A stretch of DNA of 64,000 nucleotides from Tetrahymena thermophila SB210 (taxonomy: Eukaryota > Ciliophora > Oligohymenophorea > Hymenostomatida > Tetrahymenidae), in NCBI RefSeq assembly GCF_000189635.1, contig NW_002475959.1, positions 248,001-312,000 on the forward strand, written 5' to 3'. Numbering within the stretch: position 1 is the first letter of the stretch; each line of letters starts with the position of its first letter. Position numbers and translations under genes: made by a program. Under the pieces are notes generated by a model. It searched no databases. It was not told where the DNA came from and saw nothing but the letters and a program-made list of their open reading frames with translations. Below are positions 20,756-64,000 of this stretch, piece after piece.

Positions 20756-23700
20756 ATGAACAAAGGTCGAAATGAAGGCAAACTAGTTTTGTAGGATAAG
20801 ATTAAACTAATAAGAAAGGAATATGATATATTTGCCTATTTCAAAACTACTGGATTTACTTGGAATTTATGGGTTTTTCTTCTAGACGTGTATTGTTTTA
20901 TAGTATATATGATTTGGATTGCTCTTTCGTAGTACCCGTAGGGAATATAAGGTGCAATTGAAATATTTATAGAGCTGACATATATAATTAACTTAATTCT
21001 AATTATTATGCTAAATTCTAAGTAGAACAATAAAGATTACTATTTTTTTTCTCAAATCAGCTTTAGAGAAGTTAATTCAGGTAAACAACCAACATTTAAA
21101 ATATTTAAAATGCTTTTAGCATCACTAGCTAACTAAGTCAAATTTGAAATTGCGGGAGTTTTGACATGCAAAATATTAATTTTTTCTATTTTTTACTATT
21201 GATTTGCCTTAACTGAAACTAATTATTAATATTTTTTTTGTAAATAATATAAAATATTAGCTATATCAGCTATTATAATGATTCTTTCTTCTCTTCCTAT
21301 CTAGTTTACTCTTTAGTTGATTCAAGGTAGTCAAGGTGTTGAATTTGATGACTATGATGATGACCAATAGTTGCTACCCACAATAGTTATTTTATTGTAT
21401 TTACTGAAGCTGCTTCGCTACTACAATATTCAAAGATTTTTGAATAAATTTGAGAATCTCATTAAATATCTTGATTTCAATAAACTTATTTTTTTTAGAA
21501 TAGCTAGAATATTTTTTTGGCTTTTAATTACAAATCATTTCTTAGCGTGCTATTTTGTTTTTTTTAATTATTACATAACAAAGGGGTATTTTAGTAAAAC
21601 TAGCTATGATGAGAGCAATGGTTTTATGAAATATTAAACTGGCTTGCAATGGGCGGTAGAAGCTATGATTGGTTCCTCATTTGGCGATGTTGCGCCAACT
21701 ACTGAATGGGAAATCATTTTTACTATTATAGCTATGGTTACAGGCAGTGTATTCTATTGTAAAATATTTTCTGATTTAGAAAGGAAAATTCAGATTAACC
21801 AGTAGTTCTCACTGGATGTCAAGTAAGTATTCGTTAATTTTTCATTATAATTTAAAAGAACATTTGTATTTTATACAAAAATAAAACTGAAAAATTTATA
21901 TATAACATTTCAAAAGAAGAATAAAATAAGCCTCATCTATAATATATGATTGAATAATTAGTAAATTAATAAAGTTTTACAAAAAAAAAATATGAAGTAG
22001 AAAAATTATGAATCTTAAATAAATATCTCAAACTTCTTTTAGATTCCGAATTACTTTTAAAAAAATTTAAAACTAATTAATTATTCAATGATTAATATAA
22101 TCTCTAAAATTATTATTAGGCTAATATTTTAAATACATAGATAAGTAAATTTAATTTATTTATTCATTTTGGAAAAGAAATAGTTTGATTGAGAACCATT
22201 TACGAAAAGAAAAAATATATTCATAAATAAATAAATTAAAAATTTTATATTTAGATTTTTAGAAGAAATTAATTTGCATGAAATATTTAATTATAAAATT
22301 ATTTTAACTGTAAAAGATAAAGATAAGAGTAAGTTTAATTGTATGCTAACTAAAGATAAATTCCTTATAGAATATGGAATAAAATGTAACAATTTTTCCA
22401 CAGTTTTTAAGACGGTCATAAGATTAGTAAAAATTTTTTTAAGATTTTTTTTTATCAAAGCAATAAATTAAATTTAACTTACCAACTAACTTTTTTTTTA
22501 TTAATTTATCAGAGCTATATTATGATATTTTATATGAGCTGCCTCATTAATTAGAAATAGAGGTTTCGTTAGATTATAATCAGCACTTGATATAAAGCGT
22601 TTAGATATTTAACTTAGGTTCTCCCTAATTTGTGCAAGGAATAATAAAAAAATTATATCCGAGAGTAGCAATTTAGTATGATTATTTAACTAGGCCAGGA
22701 GAACTTGCAGAAGAATTTTTTATAATTAGCAAGGGAAAGGTGGAAATAATAGCAACTGATAAAAAAACAATAATTGGTATATTAGAGGAAGGAGCTTATT
22801 TTGGGGAAGTTGGCATTCTCTTATCTAATTATAGATCCTGCTATGTAAGAGCCATGACAGATTGCATATTTATGTGCATTTCTAAAGATGATTTTCTTTC
22901 AATAATAAATGAGTTCCCAGATATGAAAAATTTTTTACTCAAAGTTGCATAATAGCGACTGAAAATATCTAAGCCTGAAGATGTAAGTTAAGGTCCACTT
23001 CCTTATAAGCCATATTAAGATGAAGACGAAAACATAGAATTCCAAAATCTTACATACAGTAATCAAACTATTACAAAATAAAATTTTTAATAAATTATTG
23101 GTTGTAAAGTAGCAAAAAATATTTTTGTATCTAGCTGACAAAAAAAATGATCAATTTTTAAATTTTTTAAATTGATTAACTTTTCATAATAAATTTTTAT
23201 ACTTAAATTCTAAAAATACATAAAAATTAATAGACTCTTTTTGAAAATAACCAATCAAATATGTAAAAAATTTCAACAATTAAATAAATAAATATGTAAT
23301 AGAGCAGACATAGTAAAAATCACTAATTTGATGATATATTTTTTAATTTTGGGATTAATTTAAATTTAATTTTTATAAAATGAACTTTGGTTTAATAAAT
23401 AAATGAATATTTAATCATAAACAGTCAGATAGAGTACTAGAGGATTGCTTGTTTAAAGGAGAAAGTCATTTAATTAGAATTGTGATAAAAACCAAAAAAT
23501 GAGCTTTAGTAGTATTAACTTAGTTGAGGATCAATAAAATGACAGTGACAATTATTTGTCTTAAGAGGATATAGACAACAAAGAGAGTTTAGAATCACCT
23601 TTTGACTATAATTTATTCATAAAAATATAAAAGCATAGATAAATTTATGGGTTTTAAATAATTTTTGCTAGTGAAAACGTAAATAAATTTGTTTAAAATA

Positions 23701-26700
23701 TTTACAAAAATCTTAGCAATTAATTTTTAAATTTTATGAAAAGATAATTCTAGTTTGGTGTTCAATATTGCTTTTTGCCATTTTTTATAATCTGTTTTAC
23801 TGCATTTTTACAATTTGTTTTTACACTGATTTAGATGGATGGTTCTTAATTTTTTTAGAAGTTTTGAGCTTTTTAATCTATTTAGCTGATTCATTCATTG
23901 TATCTAGACTATCTTCTTACAATAAAAGAACTCAAACATTTAACTAAGATATAGAAAACATATTTTTACAATATGTAAATAACCATCTGATGTTTGATAT
24001 ATTTTCTACAGTACCTTTTTCTGATATTTATGATTTAATTGTTAACGGAGAAAACACAACATACAGTAGAACATTCGTAAGAGCACTCAGATTACTCAAG
24101 CTCATAAAATTTTAGAGATTCTATTTTTACATCAACAAACTTAAAACAGAATACAACAAAGAGTATAAATATTTTACATTTTTATAGCTATTTTTCGGCT
24201 ATTTCTTCTTAAATCACTTAGCAGCAAGCATTATGTACAGTATTTGTAAATTCGAATATGAGACTTCTATTTACTATGATAATGAAGGTAATAAATAGTT
24301 TTCATTTAAAACTTTATTTTAGTAAATGGATCTAAATTCTATACCTTCAATGACACCACTTATTTCACAGGGCTTCTTTAGTCTATACGTTAACTTTTTA
24401 TACTGGTCTTTCTGCGTTAGTACTTAAGGTAAAATTATTTTTAATTTATATTTAGCTCATATAAAAATAATTTGAAAAAATCCATAATGAATAGTAAGTA
24501 AGTAGTTTATTTAAATAAAAGAAAAATAAACTCTGGAAAAAAAAAATTATTAATATTTAAAAATAAGATATAAAAGTTTTTTAATATAATAAAGAATGCT
24601 AAAAATATTATGTATGAGTTTTATTTTACATTAATTATGATTTATTTTATGAGAAATATAGAATAATCAAACCTCTTTCGATATAATAATTTAATCTTTT
24701 AAAGTGAAAATTCTTTTAAATTTTTGGTTTATTTTATTTATAGGAAGTTATGGTGATTTTTGGGCTGTAAGTCCTTTAGAGAAGACTTTCTAAAACTATA
24801 CAAATATTGGGTTTAAGATATTTATTTCATTTTTGTTTGCTCAAATCGCTCATTTAGGCTTGATAGAAAAAAATATGTTTGCAACACATATGGAAAAAAT
24901 AGAATCGTTCAAACATTGGTCTAAGTAAATAGGACTATCTAACGATTTAAAAAAGAGAATAAATAACTTCTACACTTATGAATGGATTAAGCTAAGAGGC
25001 ATTGAAGATGAAGATTTGTCTAACAGCTATCTACCTGAAACTATCAAAGATTAAATTCTGCTAAATGAAATGAGATTGTAATTAAAATTAACAAAATTTT
25101 TAATATATCAATGTTTTTCCTTAAATTTAGCAAATTAAAAAACAAAAAATTATCATTTTTATTTATTTATTATTGTCAATTTTATTATTTTTTGCTTAAT
25201 TAATTAAATAAATAGCATAATCAGTTTAGTGAATCCAAGATACAAAATTGAGTACGAGGGAGTTATAATATAATTCATTAAATAATTGACAAAGCTGCTA
25301 ATTCCGTGTGATGAATTTGTATTTTAGAAGGGAGATTTAGCTCAGGAAATGTATTTTGTAGCTGATGGAACAGCTTAGGTAATTATTCGTGATGTAAATG
25401 GATTGAAAGTTTTAGCTGAAATACATAAGAGCAGTTATTTTGGAGGTTTAGAGTTGCTCAAAGAATAACCTAGCATAAGATAAGCTTCAGTTAAGGCAAA
25501 AACAAATGTTTGTTTGTATGTTTTAACATTAAATGATTACTTAAATTTCAAAGAACACTATCCCGTTGTAAAAGAGTTTTTAGAAAATCTCTATCCTTAG
25601 AAAGCTAATGATACAAATGAAGTATTTATTTATTAAATTTAATTTATAATTTTTTTTTAAAAGAATTTTTATTCTGAAGGATTATTAGGATATTTATATT
25701 GAGAGAGACTAAATTTAAAAAACAAAGACTATGAAAATAGATTAAGATTAGGACTAGGGATTTAATAGATTCCATTCCTTGAATAATTTTAAGGGTGAAT
25801 ATGAAGATTATTAAAATGAGATTGAATTATCTGGTATAAAAAAGTTAGATGATAATGAGATTTTATCTATTTTTCCTTCAAATAAATAAATATTAATCAA
25901 CTAGTAGCTCATTAAATCTAATTCAATTTACAGAGAAGCTATCATGTCAATTATTTAAGTCAGATGCTCAAAGCAAGAAAATAATAAATAAAGCTAAAAT
26001 AATAATGCTTTTTACAAAGCTAACAACCAAATTGAATAACTTCCTCTTACTGAGTCTAATGAAGAAAAAAAAAGCTTCAGCTTTAAGAATATCTTTCTTA
26101 ACAAAAAAAATAACTCAAAAAATGATTAAATTAAGGACAGTGCAGATAAACTTAAAACAAAGAACAGCTAATAAATTTTATAACAAAATGACATGGAAAA
26201 CTATAATTTAAAAATAGATATACTAGAAAGCGAAACAAAAAATATCTAAAATTAGAAGATTTATCTAGCTTAAAATCATCTCTAAAATAGTAGTTAAAAT
26301 TAATTTTTAAAAGAAAACTAGTTTAACCTACAATAAAGTTTGTATATTTTCCCAGAATCTACTTCGAGCAATATTGATATAGCTTCCTTAAAAATTACAC
26401 CAAAAACAACATTAGAAAGATTCGATTTCGAAAACAAGCTACAAAATAAAGTTGTCACTCCATCAAGTATTACCAATAGATAGGAATTATTAACTAAGGA
26501 GCAATAGAAATAATTAGAAGAAGTCATGACTTTTTCTAATTAAATTATTTTCAATCAAGTAAACAATAACAATCTGTATTTTGAGTCTGAAATTGAAAAC
26601 AATTTTAATGTGGAAAACTTATCCTTTGATCCATCTGAGCTAAATATTCAAACAGAAAAAATTGAAATTAGTGAAGAAGATTTAAAAAAATATTTCGATA

Positions 26701-29700
26701 CTGGAAGTTTATCTTTAATAGATTCTGAATCAGAGAATAATGTTTATGAATAATAAGAAGCTAACATTGAATTCAATTAGATTCTTTGGCAACTTGATAA
26801 ATTAATTAACAATTCATAATTTATCTAGGAGGAAGAGGAATATAACAATGAAAGTTATTGTGATCCAAATATTTTAAAATTTAATCATGAAAATAATTTG
26901 GTGAAATTTGATGAGCAAGATGATAACTAAAATATTTAAATAGAAAAAGGAAATAAGATTGTAGATAGTGAAAACTTATAAAATGTAATTGCAATATCAA
27001 CAACTTAAGTTGAAAACTAGGAAAACGAGGGACAATAAAGCTTTATTCATATTCCAACTGAAGATAATTTAAAACCTGAAATTAATTATGATGAATTTCT
27101 TTATGATTATAACAGCTTTGATTTTAATATTGATTTGACTCAGCTTGATTTAGATTTATCTGAAGAAAAATCCTAACACAAAATTAAAAAAATGAATTAA
27201 ATAAACTTCTAAGAAAGTTACCTTGCATTCAAAAAATTCCTTACTCATTTCAAGAATTCTACGTTCTAAAATTTGAAGCGTTTTTATAATTCTTTTAAAA
27301 ATTTGGAGTATTAAGTATCTTTTGCATAGTACTATTACACAATTTTAATACCTTTGTATTTAGCCTATTCTGATATCACTTTTAGAAATCCTATTTTGAT
27401 TGCAATAGAAGCTCTCATCCTTATTATAGAATTAAGAAATCTTAATAAAAGTAGAATCACTTTAAATTAAATTTATGAGGAGCTTAAATTTTTAAAGCTT
27501 CCAGATGGTAATTTCAATAGATTTTTTATTAATTAAATTTTGAGAAAATAATTTTATTCATTAATCATTAACTAAAAAAGAAAAATTAGCAAATAAAAAT
27601 AATTAAATATTTATAAATGCTACTCAAATAATTTTTTAACAGCGATTGTAGCAAGCACCTTAACTTTCAACTATAATTTTAAATCCATATCCAAAAAGGT
27701 TGCAAATGAGATAATTATAAATTAATTTATTAATTAAACATTTATAAATAAAATAAATAATTTATCTTAAAAATGTTTAAATAATTTAGTAAATTATAAA
27801 TAATCATTTCATAAATATATTAATTTAATTTAATCTAATAAAATAAATAAATTAATAATCAATTAAATAAATAAATATTTAGATAGCGTTTTATAGAAAG
27901 GGTTTAGCTAATACGATAAAGAAGAAGATAAAATGAAAAGATAAAATCACTTAGAGAGTAGGGCTATTTATAGGAAATTGTTGATAGGGTATTAAATCGT
28001 ACAAGCTATTCCATTTTCATTGATATTTGATTTATGCCAACTAAAGGATAGGAGAACTGATTACTTTTTAATAATTATTTAAATGCTCAGATGTATTTCC
28101 TTTACAAGAATGTTTAATATTCTTTCGCCTATTAGGAAGAAAAATATTTATCTTACTAAAGTCATAGAGATTATATTAACATATATTTTTATGAATCATG
28201 TTTTCTGCTGTATTCTTATATTTTTAGGAAATATGGAGTCTGACTTTAATAATTCTTGGTTTGCAAAGATACCAGCTCCTTAGCCAGATTATCCTAACAA
28301 TTATGTAAATTTTTTAAATTTATTGATTAATTTACATATTTTTCTTAATTATTAAATAGAGAACCACCCTTAATATTTCTAATGTTTCTATTTATATACA
28401 TGCAACTTATTGGTCTTATGTGACATGCTCTCATGTTGGTGTAGGAGACGTTACAGGAGTAAATATAAGAGAAAGAGCTTACAGCATTATTATAATGTTC
28501 TTTACAACATTTTTGCATTTATATGTTTTCGGGAACATCGCTACAATCGCTAAAGATGCAACTTTCATATTAAAGAAAAACCTAGACGAGAAGTATCAGC
28601 AAGTCATGTTTACAGTTAAAAATATCGATCTTCATAGATTTTAGATATAAATAGAAGCATATTTCAATTTTATATGGAATGATTTTTTGGGTTTGGATGA
28701 AAATGAAGTCATTAAAAAGCTTCCATATATTCTAAAAGTCGAATTTTTTAAGAAAAAATACTCATAGAGCTTGAAATAGAGCAATTTATTCAAACTTAAT
28801 GGATGGTAAAGAGATTCTAATATAGAGAGCTAACTTCTCAGATTTATGCACACAAAAATATATCTTCCTAGTGATATAATTGCTTAAGCTGGATAAACAT
28901 ATTAGGACCTTTACATTCTCCTTCAAGGCAGAGTAGAAGCATTTTAATTTAATGGAATAAAGGCTTACGATTTTTAAATTGGAGATTACTTTGGAGGATC
29001 TATAGAAGGAAATTTACCTCTTTCTTGCTATTTATAAGCATAGTAAAAATTTGTTTATTTTGAAAAGTATTTTACAATTTTAGATTCATGAATTAATTAA
29101 ATAGTTTAATTTATATTCTTCTATCATAACGCTAAATAAAATACTTCAATTTTAAAAGCTAAATTTGAATAAATCCACACAAAAATACTAGAAAAAGCTA
29201 TTTTTAGAATATATTATTCAATACTCAATTTTAATAATTTATCATGGGTTAATTTTCTGTAATTTATTTGAATACCGTAATACCTTTTTAAAAAGATTTT
29301 TTAATTACTTTTAGGAAAGTAAATAAAAAATTGATCTTTCGTTAATACCTATCTTTTTAACCAAAAAAATATTTATCTTATAAAAGATTAGAGGTATTGA
29401 GGTATAAATTTGTAAATTTACATTTGTAAATGTGAATATTTTTGGAAAAAATAGTTTATTTTTCTAAGAGTTATCAAACTTTTTATATTTATAGAATCAT
29501 TTGCAACGTTGGAATAATTCCTAAAGAGTCACTGAAACACATCAAAGTAGTATTCCCTGACTGGTACTCTAAAATAATGAGCATACAAAAAAGAAATAAC
29601 TAGGAGTGGTTGTACAGTCTCAACTTTTTTTAAAAAAAACTTCCATAAGATCATATTCTATTAACAAGTGATAATAATTTTATAGATTATTAAGTAACTT

Positions 29701-32193
29701 CTGAATTACTAAATCACTATAAAGCTGTAGCAGCTAATTTTTTGGAGTTATAAGTTATAGAAAGAAAAAAAGAAACGAAAACTTAAAAAGATGCTAACAT
29801 GGACTTATTCAAAGACTTTAATTTAATTGATGATGATGAGGATGAAGAAAAAGATGAGAATTAAAAAAAAGAAAATGCTGATGATGATAATCAAAATAAC
29901 TAAAAATAAGAAAATAAAAACTTACAAAAGCAATCGAATTTGTTAAATTCATTGAGATAATAGGTTAGAAAGAATACATTTTACCAAAATTATATTGGAT
30001 ATGTAGAATAAGCTGAGGTAATTTAAATTTATTATTTATAGTCTTTATAAAATAAAAATTAACTAACAATTTGTAGATATTTTATAAATACAAATTCGGA
30101 TAAGCTTTCTAAATAAGTAGTAATAATTAATTATTAGAAAAATAATGAAAGAATTTTTATTTTAAAATATGTTGATTCTAGCTAGAATTTATTCTTATTT
30201 CAAAATAAAATTTAGTAACTAATAAACATAAACATTTATTCAATAGCTATTTTATAATAATTTATTTTCTAAAATATTTAAAAGGATAAATCTATTAAAT
30301 CTGAAAAATACAAAAATTTGTTTATTATATCAAATCCTTATGGATATGAGTAAGGAAATAAAATAAAAAAAATGAATATGATTATATTGAACTGGAAATA
30401 TGTATATAAAATATTTTTGCTCTTTGATTCTAAGTTTGACTACTTCCTCCACCCTACTTCAAATGCTTTTTATCAACTCTAATGGATGTCGATGATATTT
30501 AGTATTTATAGTATCATTTTTACCCCAATTTACATTTGCTATGAAATAGAGCTAAACAACTACATTTTCTTCTTTGAGGTATATTTATCTCTTTATTTAT
30601 TTATAATAGCATTAATATCAAAACACTTCTTTGTATGCAATAAAAATTATATTTTTTGCTTAGGTTTTAAGTGCTTTCCAATTAGTGGTGCAGCTCTATA
30701 TTGATATCAAAACACCCTTTTATATTTAAGGAACTCTTGTTACAGATACCAAAAAAATCATTGCTTATATGTGGAAATCAAAAAACCTGTTGTAAAGATT
30801 TATTCACTTGCTACCCCTTAATTTGATTTTATGGACGTATTCGTTAGATAATAAAGATAATTTAATATTATACTCTTTTTTGAGTTTAATTAGAGGTGTC
30901 AGATCAGTTTATCTCTTTGAAGTCAATAATATTTTGTAACGGATTTCATAACTAAATAAAACTCAATAAAAGCTTTTTGGTATTTTTTAAAGTGTTCTTT
31001 ATCTTGTCACTTGCTGGCATTACATCTCTTGCATTTGGTTTTGGTTTGTTTTAAACATATCTCAAAGGTTTGTGGTAATTAACTAATTAAATAATTTACG
31101 ACAACTATTATATTTCATAATTAACAAATATTTAAAAAATTATATGATATAAATTACAGCCTGATTCTAATTGGATAGTTGCTAATACTTTGTATGATGC
31201 TTAGCTAAATGAAAAAATTATAAATAGCATGTTTTTTGTGATGAGCATAGCTACAACATGTGGATATCCAAGTATGAAATCTAATAATGATTATGAAAGA
31301 GTGTTTTTTTTCTTAACAATTTACTTTGGTGATGCTTTTATTGCTTATGGTTTTGGTAAGCTGGCTTCTTAATCTGAGCTATTAGCTGAAGTCTAATTAG
31401 AAATTCACTCAAAAATAATGTAATTAATAAATAAATAAATCATTTAAATTTAACACTCTTTATTTCTAATAAAATTAATTTAGGTAATTTAGAATTCTGT
31501 TAAGCGATATATATGACAGTAAAAATAAAACACATGACTAAAGAAATAGGAGAATTGAACACTACTATTTATACAAATCAACTACTCAAGTTTCTGCAGA
31601 ATAAGATTTGTTACAGATTATGCCTTTAATTCCTTATACTTTGGTAAAATTCTATTATTATCTATTTATATTTTTGGAGAAAGCATTCAATTATGATTTT
31701 TTCTAATTTCTTTAATTTAAAATTTAAACTTTGTTTAATTTATAGCATTATTAATTTATTTTGATTTTTTAATCTAAAGTATGAGTAGCTAATGTTAACA
31801 AGTAAAATGAAATTCTTGTAAAATATACCTATATTATACAAATTGACAAAATCAGTTTATTATAAAGAAATAGCTCAATATATTGAGCGCAAAGTATTTT
31901 TACAAAATGACTATATAAACGTAAAGAATAGCACTGATTCTGACTTATATTTTATCAGTAAGGGAACTGTTAAAGTATTAAGCCCAAAAGAAGACTCGAT
32001 TTTACTAACACTAAAAGAAGGAGATGTTTTTAGCAGCATAACCATGAATAAAGATAACAAACTTAGGCTCTGTAATACATTTTCGAGTAATTTCACTGAA
32101 GTCGTTACTATTAAATTAGAGCACACTCAAAAGTTGTTTTAACTATTCCCAGAATTAAAAGTAGAAATAGTACAGCAAAGTAAATTGAAAGAT

Positions 32194-32245
<52 letters not shown>

Positions 32246-50600: not shown

Positions 50601-53600
50601 CTGGTATCATGTACATACTTTGTAAATATGAATATGATAATAATTTAAGCTACTCTTTAGGAGTTTAAATGGATGGTTAATCAATTGAATAAGAAAGACC
50701 CTTTATGATTAAAAATGTTTATGTAAATTTCCTGTATTGGTCTTTCTGCGTTAGTACTCAAGGTATAATTTACAATTTAACACTTTAAAATAATTTAAAA
50801 GTTCATATTTATATTTAGAGTAAAAAAATATTTTCGAAGCAAGTTATTAAAATAATTGATTTCTTTATTAATAGATTTTATTAACTTAAAATAAGAATTC
50901 ATATTTTATTTGTATTACATTTATATTTGATATAATCTTAGGAGCATATGGAGATATATGGGCTATGAGCTCATTAGAAAAGACATACTAAAATGTTACA
51001 AACTTACTTTTTAAGATATTTTTCTGTTTCTTGTTTGCAAATTTAGCTTCAGTTACAGCTGTATCGAAAAATAAACTTGAACAATACTTGGAGGAGGTAG
51101 ACTCTTTTAAATATTGGTCTAAATTGATAGGGCTCCCTACTGAAATTTAAAATAAAATTATACAATTTTACAATAACAAGTGGTATCATCAAAAAGGTAT
51201 CGAAGATAAAGAATTAGAAGAAACCTTACTACCGGATAACATTAAAGATAAAATTTTGCACCAGAAAATGAAATTGTAATTTAAAATAAAATGCTTCTTC
51301 AATATTTTTAATATTATTTATTTTAATAAAGTATCGTTAAATTAATAAATCCGCTTCAAAATTCATAATTAGATAGTATTTTAACACTATTTCTTAAAAA
51401 ATTTGAGAAAATTATCATCACATAAGGAGAATTTGTTTTCTAAAAAGGAGATTTGGCTCAAGAAATTTACTTTATCGAAGAAGGGTTAGTGTAAATAGTT
51501 AATACTAACAACAATGAAGAAGAAGTCTTAGCTGAAATAAGTGAATATGGTTATTTTGGAGGCTTAGAATTTATAAATATAGTTCCTTCTCTCAGAAAAG
51601 TTTCTGTAAGGGCTAAAACTAATACATCACTTTTTATGCTTGAACTTGATTAGTATTGTCAATTACTTGAAGAATATCCATTTGCTAAAATGTTTATACA
51701 AAACATCTATCCACAAAAACAGACAGAAGTATTTATTTCTCCTAATTTTTATAAAATTTAACTTTTGTTGAATTAAAATAATTAATAGAACAATAAATAA
51801 AAGATGTTTGAAGATAGAATCTTAAAATAAAATAGAAATAAAAACTTAATAGACTTAGTTGATTTTAAAAATTGCTATGTTGAGAATGAAGCTAACTTAA
51901 ATAATTAAGAGTTTAAGTAAATTCATTAAAAACAGAATGCCGCTGAGAATTGCAAAATGAAAATATAATTAATTAACCAAGAAAAATAAATCACAATTAA
52001 TTAATAAATTCTAAAGAATAAAAATGATAACTAAATTTTGTTATACAATGATCTGATTAGTTCTGTTTGTTAAACTAAGGTGTGCTCAGAGTAAAGCTAT
52101 TTTTATAATTAACCAAATACTCATAATCTTTAAGATTTATAATCTACACATCAATATTAGCAAAATCCATAACAAATTGAGTTGATGCGATTTGATAAAT
52201 AAGAATCAAGCTAAATAAAAGAAAGGACCTTTAACATTTAATAAGATAACTAAATAAATTTAAATACTGAATTGAATTAGAAACAAGAAAATAATGTAAC
52301 TCAATAATAATTATAAAAAATAAATTTTATTTAACTTTAATAAAACGATTAAATTTTAGAGAACATTAATAAAAGTTAATTAAAGTAATAAGAACCATAG
52401 TTAATAGCTATATAAAATTTTAAGTAACCAGAATAAATTAAAATTTAGTAGCTCAATTAATCAGAAAGGAGATTAAGTTTAATTTATTTTGATGATAGTA
52501 GTGATTTTTAAAATTATAAAAAACTATAAAATGTAAAAAATAATCAATTAAAATTGAACACTCATAGTAATCTAAGCTAAGCTTAGATTAGAGTAGAAAG
52601 TAATAGCAGTCTTAGTCAAGATAGTTAAAATAACTTTCCAAAAAAATATAGACAAAAACGATAGAAAAAACGTTTAAGCCAACTCAACTAATATAAAATT
52701 AATTATTTAAAGAAGAAGAAATAAAGCTTTTTATTCGAAGATTTACAACTGAATGATATTAATTAAAAACAAAATAATCATTTTTTATGCAATTCTTCGT
52801 TTGGAGATAATTCATAGAATACGAACTTACTAATATCTAAAAATAGTCTAACAAATTTCAATTTAGATTAATTAGAAATAATTCATAACATTAAGAAATT
52901 TGACTCTGATGAGTTTAATTTTAATTAAAATGATCTTTCATTTTTAGATTTAGAGATGGAATAAAACTAAAATTTTGAGAAAATACAAAGTTATTTTGAT
53001 AAAAATTTAGAATTTTAGGTTCTAGTCGATCGAATTTGTGACCAAACTAAATAGTATAATTCTTAGTTAACTGATTAGGAATTCTACGAATTTGAAGAAA
53101 TTATAGAAATAATTGGTATAACTTAAAATGAAATTTAAGAAGAGAGTTAACTAAATAATAAAATTAACTTAAGTGGAATGTATGAATAAGATATTCGTAA
53201 TTTACAGTAGAATCAAGATCAATCATAAATAATTTCTAATATAAATTCAAACTACTTAGATTACAGTACATTTAATGATAGCTATTACTAAATTAATGAA
53301 CTTGATAAAAGCATATCTTATTCTTAATTCAGTTTTGATTTAGAAGAACCTATTAAAGATGATGACTGTAAAGATGGATTGTCAAAGCAAATAAATTAAA
53401 GCTAACTTTTAAATTAAAAAAATTAAAAAACCAATAAGCTAAGAGAAGGATTTGTAAAATTTTTACTAAATGTATACATCACTTTTTCAAAAACAGAAAG
53501 TTTGATATCCTTAACTCAGCTTTATTTTACAATAATAATTCCTCTTTATCTTGCATTTAAAGAAATATCTTTCTAAAGTCCTATTCTTATTTCAGTTGAA

Positions 53601-56600
53601 ATTCTGATTATAATTAATGAGTTCATTTAACTTATAAAGCTTATAAAGTTATATAAAGGAACAATTGATAGCATATCTGAAATTTAATATGATAGATGTA
53701 AAAAATAAAATTAATATGAATTATTTTTTAATAAAAAATTATAAAATTTTTGCTTTTAATTATAAAATTAAAAATAGAATTTCTCTTAAATTAAAAAAAA
53801 TATTTAATTCACTATTTTTAAATTAAAAGCTTAACTTTAAGTGGCTGCTGCTAATAGATTCTCAGAAAATAAACACTCTTTAAAAATTTTCTAAAAAAGA
53901 AAAGAGAAAGTTTTTATAAAGATTCTTTTAGAAATTTTGATAATTATTCCTTTTTGTCTGATCTTCGATTTGCTTTAAATAGAAGGAATAAGAACGAGGT
54001 TTGAGCTCATATTTCTTTAGTTAATTAGAGTTATTCCATTTTGCAGAATATTCAATGTTCTTTCATCATTAAAAAAAAAAAATATCTATTTGTGTAGAGT
54101 TATTGAAACTCTTTTAGTATATGTTTTATTCTGTCATTTACTTGGAAGCCTATTTATAGTTTTAGGAAAAATAGAAACAGATTTTAACGCCTCTTGGATG
54201 ATTAAAGTTCCTGCTCCACAAGCTTAATTTCCAAATAATATAGTAATAATTTTCATTCATAAAAAATATAAATAAATAATTACATTTTAATTTTAAAAGA
54301 GAATTCAATTATCAATAAGCAATAGAAGTTTATACTTGCATGCTATATATTGGGCATATGTAACTACATCTCATGTGGGGGTTGGAGATGTAACTGGAGT
54401 TAATTTAAGAGAAAAGATTTTTAGTATTTTTGTTATGTACATATCAACCTTCACACATATCATAATATTTGGAAATCTTGCCTCTATGGCAAAAGAAGCT
54501 GCTTTCATGCTAAAGATTAAACTTGATTAAAAATATGAAAAAATATTTTAAACTGTTAGTCTTTTGAATGTTACTTCCTTTAATATATAAGTTGAAGTAA
54601 TTTTAATAAATAAAATATAAAATTTACTTTATTTCTTTAAAATATTTAGAGTTATATAAAGTTTATTTGGAATGACTCTTATGGCTTAGATGAAAATCAA
54701 ATTTTAGAGAAGTTGCCTTTTTATTTGAAAGTTGAAATCCTCAAAAAACGATACAAAAAATGTATAAATAAAGCATTTCTTTTCAAATCTAATTCCTGGT
54801 AAGTGGATATGAACATTGTTCACTCAATTCTGAGATTTATGAAAGTCAAAATATTCTTAACAAATGATATAATTGCAGAAGCAGGCAAGTCTTACCAAGA
54901 TTTGTACATCTTTTTACAAGGAAAATATGTTGCCTATCAATTAAATGGCAAAAAAGCATATGAGGCACACGCAGGAGGTTTTTTTGGAGGATCTTAAACT
55001 GATTTACCTCTAACATTATATTATCAAGCCAAGTAAATAACTAAATCTAAAAATTTTCTTAACGAAATTTTATTTAAATAGAAATATCTGCAAGGTAGGA
55101 GTTATAGACAAATAGTATGTGAAATATTTAAAACAAGTATTCCCCGATTGGTATGAAAAGATAATGGGCAAGTAAAAAAAAAACTATTAAAGCTATCTTC
55201 TAGATTTAAGTTATTTCTAGGATTGTTATGTATTTTCCTAACAATAAACCTAAAATAGATATATCATGAACAATAAAAATCATTTAATAGATTATCACTA
55301 CAGTGAAAAGCTTTTAGATCACTATAAATAAGTGGCATCTAACTTTTTTGAAGTAGAAGTGGCAAATAATTCACATGATAACAATAATAATTTACAAAGC
55401 ATTTAAATTTTAAATTAAATTAATACATCTGATGAAGATGATTTTGAAAACGCAGAATAAATGAAAAACTAAGAGGAATTTGATAGCAACATTAAATATT
55501 CTTAGAAAGAAATTGAAGGAATCAAATAATGGAAAAAAAGAATAGCTGAAAGAAACATAAGTATAGCGTGGGATATCTCAAATATTTCTGTTCATAAAAG
55601 CTAAAGCCAAATTGAAGTATGCTAAATATAAATTTATAATTATATAATTTATTAATTGATTTCTTTTACAAATTTAGAATAATGTATTGAAAAATGGATC
55701 TTTTGATAAACCCTATATTATTTGTCTGCCATATTAAAAAAGCTCAGATTAATCTTTTTAAAATAACAAAGACATGATTATTCTCCATTTTAATTACATA
55801 TACAAATTAGCCTTCATTAAAGATAATGAGTATAACTACTTCTTACATCCTTACTCTTCAGCTTCTTATTATGTCTAAATTATCAACCTTATTTTCACGA
55901 TTTATAGTCTTATTTTCACACCTATTTATGTCTTTTTCGGGCTTTAAATTTCTATTTTACCTTTAGTCTTTGAGGTATTTTTATTTACTTTTTTTATCAT
56001 AATTAAAGTATTAAGCAACATTACCTATTAAATAATATAATAAACTAGCTAAATATCAATTCATACACATAAAAAAAATTAACTTTTATTGGTATAACTT
56101 AAGAATTAATTCATACATTTTAGGATGAAACTTTAAAAGCTTTTAATTAATTTACAATTAATCATTAGCGTGTTTAGATCCAATATTTTAGCTGATTCAT
56201 AATTAATCGGTTAAACCAGTTATTCAAACAAAATTACATAGCATATTTTAATTATTTTAATGTTATATTTATTTTTAAAATATTTAATTTGATATATTTT
56301 ACTTATTAAAGATTATTCATACTATGTATTTGTTTGTTGAACTCTTTATAGATTTGAGAACGCCATACTTCAAACAAGGATTGTTGGTAGCAAATAGTAG
56401 AAAAATTTTTACTTATTTATGGGAAAAAAAGAACTTAAAACTAAGACTAACTTGTTTATTTCCTCTTAATATTATTCTTTGGTAAATAAGCTAAGATTAT
56501 CAAGAGAGATCTTTTACCTTAAAACTTGTTTTCGTTTTACTCAGAGGCATACGATTATTATAAATATTTAATTTAGATGCTATTCTTGTTAGAATTTAAA

Positions 56601-58133
56601 CGCATAATAAATCTAAACAAAAAGCACTAGGCATGCTTGTAGGTTTTTTGCATGTGTTAATTATGTGGCACTATTTTTCTTCACTATGGGTTTGGTATGC
56701 TTACAACATCTCAGTTCCTAATTTTGTAAATATTATCCATATTACACTTTTTTCAAATATTATGTCAAATAAATAAATTTATTAAAATTTTTTCTATGTG
56801 TATATAATTAGCCTGATTTAAATTGGGTCTTGGCAAATAATTTACAAGATGCTGATTTAATTAAAAAAATACTCAATGGGCTTTTTTTTGTTATGAGTAT
56901 TGCCACAACTTGTGGATATCCAACGATGAAATCTAATAATGACATAGAGAAAATATTCTTCATATTTGCTATTTATTTTGGAGATGCAATTATTGCCTAT
57001 GATTTTGGTTTGATTGCTACCCAGTCATTACTTTTACCATAGAAATACTAAGAGATAGACAAAAAAATTAAGTAATTTAACATACTGTAGATACTTAACA
57101 ATTAAGGCAGATATTTCATAAAAAACTTTTTTTGTGTTGTCATAATTAAAGTTAAATTTTAAGTTTTTAATTTTAAAATCAATCAACCTTAATTATTGAG
57201 AAGCTACAATATTTTTACTTTATAGGATAGTATTCAATTTTAATTAATTTAAAATAAATCTTAGGTAATTTAAAATATTGCTAAATATTGGTATTGATCA
57301 CAGTAAAAATAGCAGCATAATAAAACTTAACAAAAAAATTGAACTTTCATATCTATACAAACTATACTCAAATTTATATGTCGAATAATAGCTGAAATCG
57401 ATATAGTATTTGATACCTTAAACACTGGTGAATATAATTTAATTCATAATATTTATTTTAAATTGAATCTATTTTTTAATAAATAGTACGACCAATTATT
57501 TTAAAGTCATTAATCTAATTATCTACAAAAGATACCAATATTACTGGAGCTTTCTAAATCCATTCACTTTAGAAATATTTAAAAGCATATTGAACTTAAA
57601 GTTTTTTTACCATATGATTTTGTAACTAAGAAGGATTCTTAAAACAGTTATTTGTGTTTTGTAAGCAAAGGTAATGTGAATATTCTTTCTCCCAAAGAAA
57701 ATGCAGTTATCTAAGTATTAAATGAAGGTGACTTTTTTAGCTAAGTTACTTTAACTAAATATGGTAAAAGCTCTTCTTGTCCCATTTACACATCAAACAT
57801 TGCAGAGATAGTTTAAATTAAGCATAAAAACGTTAGGTTGATGTTTCAAATTTTCCCAGAGTTTAAAAACACAATTTATAAATATGGTAAAAAATTTTTT
57901 TAATTTAAATATTTTATTTAAATTTATTTCATTAATCAAAAGCAAGGAAATAAATTTGTGTGCCTGTTACATAAAATTAAATAAAGTTGAATCTGCTTAG
58001 TAATTATAAGGAATAAGCTTTATTGTAAGTAAATAAATATTATTCAGGTCATCTGAATAAAGGAAAAAGAGATTTAAATATGAACTCGAATATTTTTCTA
58101 CCCAAGTTTATGACTCAGAGTGATAAATATTGA
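47692..58133 (+). CDS. four-repeat cyclic-nucleotide-gated-type channel, copy 3
   Basis: Nineteen exons give 2,799 residues. ATG 47692 (ATGATTGCCAAA) is chosen because copy 4 has the matching ATGACTGCCAAA. The ATG 56 bases further on is out of frame. Repeat I (to about residue 500): pore SSFGDVYPP (48498-48524), cassette FGEIAILISQYRT intact. Repeat II (588-1046): S4 RLFRLLRLIKFRRF, pore QGAYGDIWA, C-linker, FGG cassette. A linker of ~570 residues, extremely Q/N/D/E rich, lies in one 1,909-base exon with no TGA. Repeat III (1620-2130): pore HVGVGD (54372-54389), FGGS cassette without the arginine. Repeat IV (2240-2736): pore TTCGYP (about 56905-56922), degenerate cassette. The tail after the last binding domain is only ~63 residues, against 345-570 in copies 1 and 2. 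Inference: a complete single-chain channel. Confidence 0.85.
47692..58133 (+). other. exon map of channel copy 3
   Basis: Exons: 47692-48004, 48094-48646, 48886-48995, 49098-49628, 49810-50066, 50120-50762, 50942-51275, 51332-51728, 51789-53697, 53830-54242, 54300-54596, 54650-55032, 55082-55616, 55678-55974, 56312-56725, 56812-57071, 57265-57427, 57487-57886, 57943-58133. Total 8,400 bases, divisible by three. Exons of 313, 110, 531, 643, 334, 413, 297, 383, 297, 414, 260, 163 and 400 bases are identical in length in copy 2. Confidence 0.75.
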
Positions 58134-59340
58134 AAATGTATGAGTAGCTTAAATAATTAATAACTTTATTCAATAATTAAATTAAATAATAAAAATTTTA
58201 ATGTAAATTTAATCATTCATTTTTAAATAACTAATAAATTTTTAATATTTTTTAAAAATGATTTTACTAAAATAACTTTAAAAAACTACTTTTAGAAAAA
58301 TAGACTTTCTAAAATCATATATTTGTTTTATTTATTGTTAATTATTTAGTCATCTAAGTAAAAATATAAAAATAAAATATAAAAATATAAAAAATTTTGT
58401 ATTAAATTGAGTTATAAAGATTAAAAAGAATATTTATTAGTATATTTTACTTGGTTATTTAGATTTTTTTCTAACAAAATTATTTTCTAGCTAGGTTTAA
58501 TCTACAAAAAAATACTTAATAGATTGCTAATAATGTATTTTTATAATTATTATTGATAAAATGCATTTTAAAAAAATTTCGTAATTCTTCAATCATATTT
58601 ATTAAACAAAATATTGATATATCTAATAAGTTAATTATTTAATTTTTGAAAGACTTTGTTTCGGAAATATATTAATTTACTTATCAAGAAGTAAATATTG
58701 CTATCCTTAAGAGTAATTGTTTTGAAGTAGAATTAGTAAAAATTATACCGTGTTTTGATAATTATAATCACTTCTTTCTTATTCAATTCAAATTTCTTCT
58801 CCTTGAAATATAGAAACCTTATCATTTAAGGTTGTATTAATTTTAAGACTCCAAAATTTTAGTGAATAAGGTAGTTAGTTTTTTACTCATTCATAAATTA
58901 AAAAAGTATGATTTGAGTAGAGCTCATGCTAAAAGAAATGAAGAGTAAACAAAAAAAAAATTCTATACTATTAAAAAAAACCTAAATTAAATATTTTTAT
59001 TGTGAGTTGGAACTATTTACATATAAAAACTTATTATTTAGTTTGATTGTTAGTGCGTGTAATCACTTTATATTTTTTGGATTAATTACGATGACAATAA
59101 ATGAAATATATTAGAATCAAAGACAAAGCTTGTAAGAATAAAAAAATTTGATCAATAACTTTTATTATTAAATATTCATAATCTAATAAATAATAAGCAA
59201 AAAGTAATTTATTGTATTTTATTAAAAACACTGCAACACTCCTAACACTGTAAAAGGATTTGTTATATATAAAGCAATATTTTTGCCAAAGCTCACATTA
59301 AATTATCTGATAATAACTCCATACTGAATAGAGCTAGAGG
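58134..59340. promoter_or_regulatory. spacer between channel copies 3 and 4
   Basis: A+T-rich. From about 58850 it matches the upstream flank of copy 3. The first ~700 bases show no gene and could hold the lost long C-terminal tail only as unrecognisable sequence. Confidence 0.5.
58850..59340 (+). repeat. duplicated 5' flank of channel copy 4
   Basis: Counterpart of 47240-47691, with the shared landmark TAGTTTGATTGTTAGTGCGT near 59039 and TAGAGCTAGAGGATGA across the start codon. It contains small insertions relative to the copy 3 flank. Confidence 0.7.
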
Positions 59341-62300
59341 ATGACTGCCAAATAAACAGTTTTATTAAATAGATTTTATGATTTAAAATAAAAAAATGAG
59401 AATCACTCTTATCTGAAATCAACAAACTTTCTATGGAATGTTTCTATATTCATTATTGATTTATATGTTGTTTCTATTTACCAGATATGGCTTGCTTTAG
59501 ATTTAAATCCGTGTAACATGTACATAATATTAGGCATATCACTGGAGTTCATTTATTTAGTAAATCTCATTTTAGTTATTGCTATAAAAAATAAATAAAG
59601 CAATATGCGCTATTACTTCTTTACTCATTTGAAATTCAACAGTATTTATTCAAGTAAAAATAATTTTAAAATTATTATAACATAGAATTTATTTTTAACT
59701 CTTAAACAATTTATAAATTAATCTAATTTCAAAATATTTTAATTTTTTATTGCATTTTAGATTAAAGAAATAACATAGATCCAATATTTTTGTTAAATAA
59801 ATAAAAAAGGTACAGTATCATTGATGAATCTTATATCTTTAATTCCTACTCATCTGATAATAGTTGTTTATTTAAAAAAATAAGGAAATACTGATATTTA
59901 TTAGGATGTGAATTTTCCTAAAGCTCTCAACTTAGCTTTATTAACAAAGCTCATAAGGTTTTTAAATATAAAAGAATTCCTCGATAAATTTGAGCACTTA
60001 GTCAAATTTCTAGATTTTAACAAGCTCACTTTTTTTAGAATATTTGTTTCTTTATTTTAGCTTTTATAAATTACTCATTTATTTGCTTGTTGTTTTGTCT
60101 TCTATAACATATACATATAGTCTGGCTACTTTTCTGTGACTCCATATGATATTTCAGGTAATTATATGAAGTATGTAGTGGGATTATAATGGGCAGTTGA
60201 ATCTATGATAGGTTCTAGCTTTGGTGATGTTTATCCTCCTACAGATGGTGAAATATTCTTGACATTTATTTCTATGGTTGCTGGAGGTGTATTTTATTGT
60301 AAAATCTTTTCTGATTTTAGTAGTCTTCTTTAAATTAGTGAACAATTTACTCTTGAACTAAGGTAAAATAATTTTTTATACTGTAGATTAACATATTTTG
60401 GAGTAGTTTTATTCTGTTTTTAAAGAATTAAATATAAAAAAGTCAAAGTAATTTTAAAATAGTAACATCAAATTCTGATCAAATAAGCTCTAGTTTTTGA
60501 GTAATTGTTAAATGGAAATAAAGATACAATGAATATAATCTAGCATATTATCAAATTTTTTCTATTAAATGCTAAACTTATTTATTTTTATATTATCAGG
60601 TAGAAATAAAAACAGGCTTACTTGCTCGCAAACAATAAATAAGTCTCTTAAAAAACATTTGACAAAATATAATATTTCTATAACAACTTTGAAGAAGGAT
60701 AAAAAATATGTAAACATTCATAAATTAATTAACTGAAAGCTTTAATTTCAAATTAATCTAATTTAAATTATTTAATTTTACAGTAATGTATTACAGCATA
60801 ATATAAGAACTTCCTTCTCAATTAAAGCATGAGGTGGTATTAAAATTCTAATAGAACTTAGTGCAAAATGTGTAAATCTTTAATTTGGGATAAGCCGAGT
60901 TTGTTGCTAAAATGCTCAAAAAAATGTATCCTCAAGTAGCTGTAAAAGATGATTTTGTATTAAAAATGGGAGAATCAGCCTAAGACTTTTACATTTTAGC
61001 GAAAGGCCGGGTAGAGATAGTGAATTAAGATAAAAAGTAGGTGATTAGAGTTTTAGAGCCAGGAGCTTACTTTGGAGAAGTTGCTATCCTGATAAATTAA
61101 TATAGAACATGTTATGTCAAAGCCCAGACTGATTGCATATTTATGTGCATAAAAAAAGATGACTTTTTAAAAATTTTAAATAAATTTCCAGAAATAAAGG
61201 ACTTCCTTCTAAGAGTTGGTTAACAAAGAATGGGTGGAACTAAAAATAATGAAGACATTTTCCATAATATTGATAAATGCTAAATAAATAAATTATCTCT
61301 ATAACCATTAGAAATTAAAAGTAAAATCTTTTTGGCTTTTAATATACTGAATATATTCTCTTATATTGTTACTATAAAACTATAAATCTTATTTAAATTT
61401 TCTTAAAATTTTAAAATAAAAATAATATGAGTTTCTAATTTTTTAAATTAAATTAAAATATGTTAATATTATTTATAATATCTATAAGATACATAAAATT
61501 CGAACCATTCACTTATAAAAAGAGGACACATATAGGATACCATATAAAATAATTATTTTGCTAAAGTAGATTAATTGAACTCAAAAAGTCCTTAAAATGA
61601 CACACAAAAGTGTTAATCACAATTTCTCAGCAATGAAGAAGCTAATTTTATAGGAGAAAGTATAAATATCTCTTTCGAAAATGAAAATTTAAAGAGAAAA
61701 ATACAAAGAGTTCGAGAATAAAAAGACTTAAAAGTCTTAGTCCTGAACTAGAAGGTAATATAAATTTGTACATTTAATCAAAATATTATTTTTATTATTT
61801 TATTTAAGGTGATGATTTACTGGGCTATGATTTTGCTTATAGTTTTAACTTACAATCTTTTTTACTCTCTTTACAGTATTTTATTTAGTGAAGACTTCGC
61901 TGGTGATGTTTCTATAGTTCTAGAAGCACTAAGTTTTTTAATTAATTTTATTGACTCTCTCATATTTTCAAGACTCTCAACTTTTTCAAGAAAAGATAAT
62001 GAATTTATTTTGAGCAGTAATAAAATATTATTCAATTACTTAAATAAGGAGTTTTTCTTTGACATGTTAGCTACTGTACCTTTCTCTAACATTTATCAAT
62101 TAGTTTGCAGTGAGCAAGAGTTTTAAAATAGCTTAATTTTTATCAGACTGTTTAGGCTATTAAGATTAATCAAATTTAGGAGATTTTAGTAATATATTTA
62201 TATATTGCAAGATCAGTACAAAATTAATTTTAAGTATGCAGCTTTAATTAAACTTGCATATGTATACTTTTTCCTCAATCACCTAAATGCTGGTATCATG

Positions 62301-64000
62301 TACATACTTTGTAAATATGAATATGATAATAATTTAAGCTACTCTTTAGGAGTTTAAATGGATGGTTAATCAATTGAATAAGAAAGGCCCTTTATGATTA
62401 AAAACTTTTATGTAAATTTTCTGTATTGGTCTTTCTGCGTTAGCACTCAAGGTATAATTTATAATTTAACAGTTTAAATTAATTTAAAAATTCATATTTA
62501 TATTTAGAGTAAAAAAATAATTTCGAAGCTAGTTATTAAAAATATTGATTTATTTTATTATTTTCATAGTTATTCATATTAAAATCTTTTTTATTGTCTT
62601 AAAATAAAAATCCATATTATTGCATTAATATTTGATATAATTTTAGGAGCATATGGAGATATATGGGCTATGAGTTCATTAGAAAAGACATACTAAAATG
62701 TGACAAACATATTTTTTAAGATATTTTTCTGTTTCTTGTTTGCAAATTTAGCTTCAGTTACAACTGTATCAAAAAATAAGCTTGAACAATACTTGGAGGA
62801 GGTAGACTCTTTTAAATATTGGTCTAAGTTGATAGGGCTTTCTTCTGAAATTCAAAATAGAATTATAAAAGTTTACAATTATAGGTGGTATCATCAAAAA
62901 GGTATCGAAGATAAAGAATTAGAAGAAACCTTGCTACCAGATAACATTAAAGATAAAATTTTACACCAGAGAATGAAATTGTAATTTAAAATAAAATGCT
63001 TCTTCTATATTTTTAATATTATTTATTTTAATAAAGCATCGTTAAATTAATAAATCCGCTTCAAAATTCATAATTAGATAGTATTTTAATGCTTTTTCTT
63101 AAAAGATTTGAGAAAATTATCATCACGTAAGGAGAATTTGTTTTCTAAAAAGGAGATTTGGCTCAAGAAATTTACTTTATCGAAGAAGGAGTAGTGTAAA
63201 TAGTTAATAATAACAATAATAATGAAGAAGTCTTAGCTGAAATAAGCTAATATGGTTATTTTGGTGGATTAGAATTCATAAATATAGTTCCTTCTCTCAG
63301 AAAAATTTCTATAAAGGCTAAAACTAATACATCACTTTTTATGCTTGAACTAGATTAGTATTATCAATTACTTGAAGAATATCCATTTGCTAAGATGTTT
63401 ATACAAAACATCTATCCACAAGAACAGTCAGAAGTATTTATTTCTCTTATCTTTCTAAGCTTTAAATATAAAATTTAATTTTTATTTAATTAAAATAATT
63501 AATAGAACAACAAATAAAAGATTTTTGAAGATAGAATCTAACATATTAAATAAAATAAAAATAAAAATTTAATAGATTTAGTTGATTTTGAAAATTACTA
63601 GGTAGATAATGAAGCTAATTTAAATAATTAAGAGTTTTAGTAGATTCATTAAAAACTGAATATTGATGAGAATTACAAAATGAGAATATAATTAATTAAC
63701 CAAGAAAAATAAATCACATTTAACCAATAAATTCTATACAATAATAATAATCATAGTAACTAAATTTTGTTATACAATGATCTGATTGGCTCTGTTTGTT
63801 AAACTAAGGTGTGCTCAGAGTAAAACTATTTTTATAATTAACCAAATACTCATAATCTTTAAGATTTATAAATTACACATAAATTGTAACAACATCCTTA
63901 ATAAATTGAGTTGATGCGGTTTGATAAATAAGAACCAAACTAAATAAAAGAAGCGATATTTAGCATTTAATAAGATTAATAAATAAATTTAAATGCTCAA
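59341..64000 (+). CDS. four-repeat cyclic-nucleotide-gated-type channel, copy 4 (5' part, cut by window edge)
   Basis: ATG 59341 opens a frame nearly identical to copy 3. Exons seen: 59341-59653, 59810-60362, 60600-60709, 60784-61320, 61489-61754, 61809-62451, 62647-62980, 63037-63433 and 63506 to beyond 64000. Seven of the first eight are within 0-6 bases of the copy 3 lengths; exon 5 is 9 longer. About 1,216 residues are visible. They include repeat I with pore SSFGDVYPP (about 60211-60237) and intact cassette (FGEVAILINQYRT), and repeat II with an S4 of regularly spaced arginines, pore QGAYGD and an FGG cassette. The start of the Q/N-rich linker is visible; repeats III and IV lie outside the window. 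No premature TGA is seen, so the copy appears functional as far as it can be read. Confidence 0.82.

Follow-up and report, generated by a model that had tools for sequence, protein, structure and literature searches.

An array of Tetrahymena thermophila genes predicted to encode single-chain, four-repeat CNBD channels with specialised repeats

We analysed a stretch of 64,000 nucleotides from the genome of Tetrahymena thermophila (contig NW_002475959.1, positions 248,001 to 312,000; C428:248001-312000 of the 101-Mb genome that we searched), which we refer to as the window, and an array of tandem genes that begins within it. Each of these genes appears to encode, in a single spliced reading frame, four repeats that each join six transmembrane segments (6TM) to a C-linker and a cyclic-nucleotide-binding domain (CNBD). 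The usual arrangement in related channels is an assembly of four smaller proteins made separately. The best explanation overall, to which we assign a probability of roughly 0.6, is that the product of each gene is a specialised four-repeat pseudotetrameric chain, gated by ligand at the first CNBD, sensing voltage through its second repeat, and forming a weakly selective cation pore.

In the genetic code used here, TGA is the sole stop codon. Five genes, labelled A to E, lie in tandem on the same strand: A, B and C are complete in the window, D leaves the window, and E lies beyond it. The genes and their repeats, all in window numbering, are as follows.

20756-34038, plus strand: gene A, 19 exons, 3,291 residues
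20855-22961, 23744-25603, 27309-29594 and 30441-32178, plus strand: repeats I, II, III and IV of gene A
35014-46575, plus strand: gene B, 19 exons, 3,099 residues
35101-37098, 37717-39419, 41121-42887 and 43548-45427, plus strand: repeats I, II, III and IV of gene B
47692-58133, plus strand: gene C, 19 exons, 2,799 residues
47779-49549, 50120-51719, 53499-55181 and 55837-57885, plus strand: repeats I, II, III and IV of gene C
59341-64000, plus strand: part of gene D inside the window, with repeat I (59428-61235), repeat II (61809-63424) and the first part of the II-III linker
71690-82985, plus strand, outside the window (loci L017-L018): gene E, 3,061 residues

Genes A, B, C and E each start with ATG, end with TGA, contain no internal TGA, and are interrupted exclusively by GT-AG introns. 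Gene D, which runs past the window (L017) and whose end is not firm, is a single GT-AG-spliced, TGA-free frame with four repeats as far as it is modelled (about 2,989 residues, or 3,013 if the 72-base intron after its CNBD-II is left unspliced). Similarly, gene C would have 18 exons and 2,819 residues if the 60-base intron at 51729-51788 were not spliced. The original prediction, a reading of the window's letters alone, held that one unbroken spliced frame joins four repeats in three complete copies, and that the last of these encodes 2,799 residues; both statements are borne out by genes A, B and C, the model of gene C giving exactly that length. It also described exon lengths that sum to multiples of three, with consistent phases. 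Such sums are indeed found for A, B, C and E, and all five genes have identical phases at their first eight splices (1,2,1,1,0,1,2,0); C, D and E remain concordant up to the end of repeat IV, as does A with one exon fused. The later phases of gene B, however, differ: it departs at one intron of repeat III (phase 0 for 1), and its III-IV junction has no modelled intron.

To obtain these models, we trained a gene finder on the window and then made spliced protein-to-genome alignments between the copies. Since the ab initio finder merged or split genes according to the penalty imposed (at one setting it returned gene A as a single gene), we used the inter-copy alignments together with tests of selection. 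As a check on the procedure, the same finder's product for a neighbouring gene aligns over 693 residues with a mitoribosomal protein of known structure.

The question of one chain or four turns on the junctions between repeats, whose exons are listed here.

23425-23678 (gene A), 37404-37660 (gene B) and 61489-61754 (gene D), plus strand: I-II linker exons
49810-50066, plus strand: I-II linker exon of gene C, 85 full codons with no in-frame ATG
25689-27507, plus strand: gene A, II-III linker and repeat III exon, after a 67-base intron behind CNBD-II
39489-41375, plus strand: gene B, II-III linker and repeat III exon, after a 51-base intron behind CNBD-II, the frame being open unspliced
51789-53697, plus strand: gene C, exon with the Q/N-rich II-III linker and the start of repeat III, after the 60-base intron 51729-51788
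63506-65387, plus strand: gene D, II-III linker and repeat III exon
75863-77801 (window numbering), plus strand: gene E, II-III linker and repeat III exon
55082-55616, plus strand: gene C, exon with the end of CNBD-III and the III-IV linker, followed by a 61-base intron and the repeat-IV exon 55678-55974

In all five genes a phase-0 intron follows CNBD-II (67, 51, 60, 72 and 55 bases in A to E), and the next exon is 1,819-1,939 bases long. The TGA-free exons of 1.8-1.9 kb that had been said to join repeat II to repeat III are real, but what they join to repeat III is the II-III linker, and an intron separates them from CNBD-II. Gene C, if left unspliced at 51729-51788, still has an open frame from 51144 to 54728, and unspliced reading past CNBD-II meets its first TGA at 41534 in B, 54728 in C and 65434 in D, so that no stop parts repeat II from repeat III in either reading of these three genes. 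The same exons contain 5-43 TGAs in their other frames. Were TGA as frequent as in noncoding DNA, a stretch of 629-788 codons would lack it with a probability of 3e-5 to 2.5e-4 (for C and D the count takes in the small intron).

Substitutions in the linkers follow the pattern of protein-coding sequence. In the I-II linker exon, which has phase 1 in and phase 0 out in all five copies and lacks an in-frame ATG in three of them, the ratio of nonsynonymous to synonymous differences per site (pN/pS) is 0.38-0.74, below 1 in each of the five pairs tested (p from 0.027 to 9e-9, one-sided Fisher test). The III-IV exon compared between C and E gives 0.52 (p=3.8e-9). The corresponding substitution ratio (dN/dS) between C and D is 0.21, 0.45 and 0.49 for the I-II, II-III and III-IV linkers, as compared with 0.13-0.26 for the repeats, and it is below 1 for every linker and pair where it is defined. 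Both sets of counts include the 20 (C) and 24 (D) codons of the small intron, and the ratios of the wider pairs, whose silent sites are nearly saturated, are rough. The linkers measure 112-123 (I-II), 532-579 (II-III; 532-569 with the small intron of C and D spliced) and 159-197 (III-IV) residues. Introns of 168-366 and 53-65 bases flank the I-II linker exon, and those at the III-IV junction measure 267, none, 61, 66 and 85 bases in A to E; the gaps between genes are 975 (A-B), 1,116 (B-C) and 1,207 (C-D) bases. The single-chain, four-repeat design that had been proposed is thus supported by open frames, splice phases and selection on the linkers alike, and we consider this predicted architecture very probable.

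The repeats are homologous to one another and to known CNBD channels. Profile-profile comparison matches the six pairs of repeats at 97.2-98.9% (three shuffled controls gave 0.2-0.4%), the repeats of gene C being mutually 16-19% identical, and it matches the repeats to an HCN1 construct, to LliK and to single-repeat channels at 97.2-99.9%. Against the single-repeat channels of the same genome, the values are 99.7-99.9% for whole repeats, 96.6-99.4% for the S5-P-S6 portion alone and 97.1-98.8% for each CNBD class. With phmmer, repeat II matches the HCN1 construct at 2.8e-24, and repeat I matches PDB 5v4s, which we take to be LliK, at 2.7e-31. Relative to the Pfam cut-off of 27.5 bits, CNBD-I (71.8) and CNBD-II (50.6) of gene C lie above and CNBD-III (14.4) and CNBD-IV (21.0) below; the latter two are CNBDs by profile (97.1 and 98.4% against the single-repeat channels). 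The Ion_trans domain exceeds its Pfam cut-off in repeat III only of gene C, and in a whole-genome PF00520 search, for which 150 of 306 candidates were scored, none of the 139 matches listed falls inside the array; a plain Ion_trans search could therefore miss a four-repeat family. A hydropathy count with a single threshold (16-20 segments per chain, not 24) was set aside, since it misses weak S-segments. The combination that marks the CNBD superfamily (HCN, CNG, KCNH and bacterial channels), namely 6TM, C-linker and CNBD homology, is found in these repeats.

The four repeats differ from one another in filter, ligand contacts and S4 charge. The filters and the CNBD-I exon are shown for gene C.

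48495-48512, plus strand: repeat I filter, GSSFGD
50759-50955, plus strand: repeat II filter, QGAYGD, split by an intron
54372-54389, plus strand: repeat III filter, HVGVGD
56908-56925, plus strand: repeat IV filter, TCGYPT
49098-49628, plus strand: exon with CNBD-I, E and R contacts both present

The filters are near-invariant within each class across the array and different between classes: GSSFGD in class I (GSCFGD in B), QGAYGD in class II (QGSYGD in A), HVGVGD in class III, and TCGYP followed by T, S or N in class IV. In a diverged sixth gene, described below, they read GNSTND, QGCFGT, HTTTGD and STGYPQ, the last retaining GYP. The K+-type filter T[VIT]G[YF]GD occurs in none of the 24 repeats of the six genes, as against all 13 single-repeat channels compared, eight of which carry exactly TVGYGD; nor does any of the 24 have a GYG or GFG filter such as that of CNGK, the single-chain channels to which we return at the end. 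The 13 comprise 12 loci of the T. thermophila genome, namely those met as hits, which are a small part of at least 151 CNBD matches, together with chain C of PDB 7w5z. Two further loci, L009 and L011, gave no channel and were left out.

As ligand contacts, we scored the E and R of the HCN cassette FGE...RT. Both are present in CNBD-I of all six genes, in CNBD-II and CNBD-IV of one gene each, and in CNBD-III of none; in the five array genes they are found together in CNBD-I alone. More precisely, CNBD-II has R in all six genes and E only in the sixth; CNBD-III has neither contact in any of the six; and CNBD-IV has both only in the sixth gene, R alone in A, and no E in the array genes. Seven of the 13 single-repeat channels have both contacts. 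A dense S4 (the fourth transmembrane segment) is present in repeat II only, with 6-7 positive residues in the five genes, compared with 3-4 in repeats I and III and 2-4 in repeat IV, a count that leaves out repeats I and II of the sixth gene; HCN1 has 7 and LliK 3. The original prediction did not remark on this asymmetry. It placed a binding domain after every repeat, which is accurate for the CNBD fold, but within the array the contacts for binding are intact in CNBD-I only.

The prediction of a family, and not a lone gene, has been extended beyond the window: five tandem genes and a diverged sixth elsewhere. In genome searches with repeats I to IV, contig C50 was the only contig outside the array to occur in all four result lists. 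There the four repeat classes occur in the array order and on one strand over 192747-204866, and we read C50:192747-205964 as a diverged sixth gene, or possibly a row of genes; in the part read continuously (198885-206366) repeats III and IV lie within one predicted gene, while repeats I and II were read as fragments and entered the tree as such. Identity to gene C is 39, 29, 29 and 23% for repeats I to IV, and the E and R contacts are both present in CNBD-I, II and IV. Some other contigs matched single classes better than C50 did, for example C112 for repeat IV (2.4e-14 versus 1.2e-10), a contig that contains single-repeat channels (L071, L073). A basic C-terminal motif, similar by eye, is common to A, E and the sixth gene.

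We built a tree of 39 rows: the 24 repeats, the 12 single-repeat channels of T. thermophila, PDB 7w5z chain C, the HCN1 construct and LliK. The four repeat classes form four separate clades (100/98 or better), and the 13 single-repeat channels group in a clade apart (100/99). The branching within every class is the same, with the sixth gene first, followed by A, E, B, and then C with D (two forks in class II have 89/99). Because this order recurs in all four classes, the four-part unit appears to be older than the split between the sixth gene and the array. As for the deeper relations, approximately unbiased (AU) tests give p=0.077 for one origin of all 24 repeats, p=0.054 for pairing I with III, p=0.074 for II with IV, p=0.107 for I with II, and p=0.032 for III with IV; the first four of these groupings are neither recovered in the best tree nor rejected. 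The tree carries a warning of long branches, strongest for repeat IV of the sixth gene.

The most likely product of these genes is a cation channel that is pseudotetrameric but asymmetric, with gating via CNBD-I. One gene would produce one pseudotetrameric chain, whose four 6TM/C-linker/CNBD repeats would stand in fixed order around one pore with the four CNBDs beneath it. Repeat I would serve as the working cyclic-nucleotide sensor, and voltage would act via repeat II, which has the best charged voltage sensor. The four P-loops would form a mixed filter (GSSFGD, QGAYGD, HVGVGD, TCGYPx) in which the match to a K+ pore has been lost; since the K+ signature is missing, a weakly selective cation pore is the best guess, perhaps one that passes Ca2+ or Na+. 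A rise in cAMP or cGMP, which the residues do not tell apart, would fill CNBD-I, and this one ligand per channel would pull the C-linker ring and open the pore. CNBD-I would be the sole ligand site in the array genes, whereas up to three sites may remain in the sixth gene. That one chain is one channel, that it conducts, and its selectivity, ligand and order of gating are all matters that we infer; the proposal for gating and selectivity is a tentative one, which we place at slightly less than even odds.

Several of our results weigh against this reading. Taken by itself, the ab initio finder does not settle the I-II junction: with gene starts made cheap it broke several copies within or after repeat I, and with gene starts made dear it fused neighbouring genes. 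The final models, having been guided by one another, are not five independent observations. Genes A and E need the small intron to be spliced for repeats II and III to be fused, as the unspliced frames stop at 25702 (A) and 75837 (E); the frames of B, C and D are open either way, however, and so the odds are unaffected. Between C and D, the III-IV exon (pN/pS 0.53, p=0.056) is not significant when taken alone. The S5-P-S6 portion by itself gives 61.5, 0.5, 4.6 and 66.7% against HCN1 for repeats I to IV, so that II and III do not match HCN1 there, although they do match the single-repeat channels. The tail of gene C after repeat IV has 63 residues (58000-58133), compared with about 255 in its near twin D. 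Lastly, the sixth gene keeps the contacts in CNBD-I, II and IV, and gating through one site would therefore be a trait of the array only.

Three other explanations deserve consideration. If each unit consisted of four short genes arranged head to tail, encoding four proteins of a heterotetramer and duplicated as a block, then identical orders of the four repeats would be expected as well, and the splits near the I-II boundary under cheap gene starts, like the stops just after CNBD-II in the unspliced frames of A and E, would fit. We regard this as highly improbable: in B, C and D, spliced or unspliced, no stop follows CNBD-II before repeat III; purifying selection acts on the linker exons, whose phases are fixed; three of the five I-II linker exons lack an in-frame ATG; and the junction introns, at 51-366 bases as compared with about 1 kb between genes, could hardly accommodate a terminator and promoter. 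The main rival to the CNBD-I-gated channel is a non-conducting or electrically silent relative, either a membrane-bound sensor of voltage and nucleotide or a partly decaying array. All four filters being off the K+ consensus, the degenerate CNBD-III and CNBD-IV of the array, and the short end of gene C are consistent with it. Nevertheless, the dN/dS of the repeats is 0.07-0.26 wherever defined in five pairs, the odd filters are almost invariant per array class, with the GYP of class IV kept in the sixth gene, and vertebrate CNG channels conduct without GYG; a silent relative is thus unlikely.

It is also conceivable, but quite improbable, that the array is a ciliate branch of CNGK by descent, encoding a cGMP-gated K+ channel in cilia. 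The overall plan is alike, and in sea-urchin CNGK a single cGMP on one CNBD, the third, likewise suffices for gating (PMC4749565). But GYG or GFG is found in none of the 24 repeats, the intact CNBD is I and not III, the repeats of gene C are just 16-19% identical to one another, and the linkers are long and unequal where those of CNGK are equally short (PMC6259924). The pairings I+III and II+IV of CNGK are outside the best tree, although the AU test (p 0.054 and 0.074) does not reject them.

The surroundings of the array contain the following genes.

73-2798: part of the mS87 gene, first in the window; residues 6-698 of its product align without mismatch to PDB 6z1p chain BS (mS87)
13481-17667: gene with RCC1 repeats and TIG/IPT domains, flanking the array upstream
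84514-86504 (window numbering): aspartyl-protease-like gene (family assigned by eye), downstream of the array

PDB 6z1p is presumably the T. thermophila mitoribosome; as the mS87 gene is cut by the window edge, we attribute the five residues ahead of the match to a spurious first exon. Elsewhere in the genome, L071:1501-2916, a single-repeat CNBD channel with TVGYGD, matches PDB 7w5z chain C at 8.8e-57. This chain is deposited as 'Cyclic nucleotide-binding domain protein', and we take the entry to be a T. thermophila respiratory complex, within which a channel-type protein is odd. On C22, C112, C145, C174, C33 and C391, CNBD matches cluster on the same strand a few kb apart; these are probably arrays of single-repeat channels.

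It remains to compare the array with known systems. CNGK had been put forward as the established exception to assembly from separate subunits, and that published contrast holds, but two-repeat tandem CNBD channels are another exception: a survey of 262 homologues reports them from dinoflagellates and oomycetes, its four-repeat CNGK channels being those of animals and choanoflagellates (PMC7576140). Tandem channels were not identified in ciliates by that survey, and a word count of it gives zero for Tetrahymena. In Tetrahymena, the CNBD ranks with the top domains of species-specific genes (PMC6564038). We found no account of a four-repeat CNBD channel in a ciliate within the open-licence literature available to us, supplementary files not being covered, and no protein named CNGK is among the 60 matches listed in each of three sequence searches. 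Public annotation very likely includes the array genes under general names.

The likeness to CNGK, established here by sequence only, is that of one chain with four 6TM-CNBD repeats, of which one CNBD works, the third in sea urchin (PMC4749565) and, judging by intact contacts, the first in the Tetrahymena array. The differences are more numerous. CNGK is hosted by animals (sea urchin, fish and others) and choanoflagellates, whereas the genes here are in a ciliate; CNGK pores carry GYG or GFG (PMC4749565), whereas the Tetrahymena repeats have no K+ signature; and CNGK is pseudo-symmetric, with equally short linkers, near-identical repeats and no obvious repeat specialisation (PMC6259924), as opposed to long, unequal linkers and repeats of 16-19% identity in gene C. 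Thus the kind, a pseudotetrameric CNBD channel, is known, and the predicted differences from CNGK lie in the host, the pore, the linkers and the way in which the repeats divide the work. The two-repeat tandem channels share fused 6TM-CNBD repeats in protists of the SAR group (stramenopiles, alveolates and Rhizaria), with CNBDs partly reduced in dinoflagellates, but they have two repeats and TVGYG or close variants (PMC7576140), whereas the Tetrahymena frames hold four repeats. The single-repeat CNBD channels of the same genome have the same domain order, but one repeat, a K+-type filter and a separate clade.

Four-domain channels of the Cav/Nav type also combine a single chain, four diverged repeats and an asymmetric filter. 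In the Tetrahymena genes, by contrast, a C-linker and a CNBD are part of every repeat, and it is channels of the HCN and LliK types that the repeats match. It is possible, though we would put the odds somewhat against it, that ciliates arrived independently of animals at a four-domain channel built from CNBD channels, whose repeats then specialised as in Cav/Nav (one ligand sensor, one voltage sensor, four pore loops) to give an asymmetric nucleotide-gated pore with a selectivity unlike that of CNG, HCN or CNGK. Since ligand sites have apparently been lost stepwise, with three in the sixth gene and one in the array genes, the number of ligands needed per CNG-type channel would become a question that can be asked. 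Single-chain four-repeat CNBD channels have so far come from animals and choanoflagellates only, in the literature covered here (PMC7576140); if our reading is true, the array would be a further case of the Cav/Nav route, in an organism amenable to gene tagging and knock-out.

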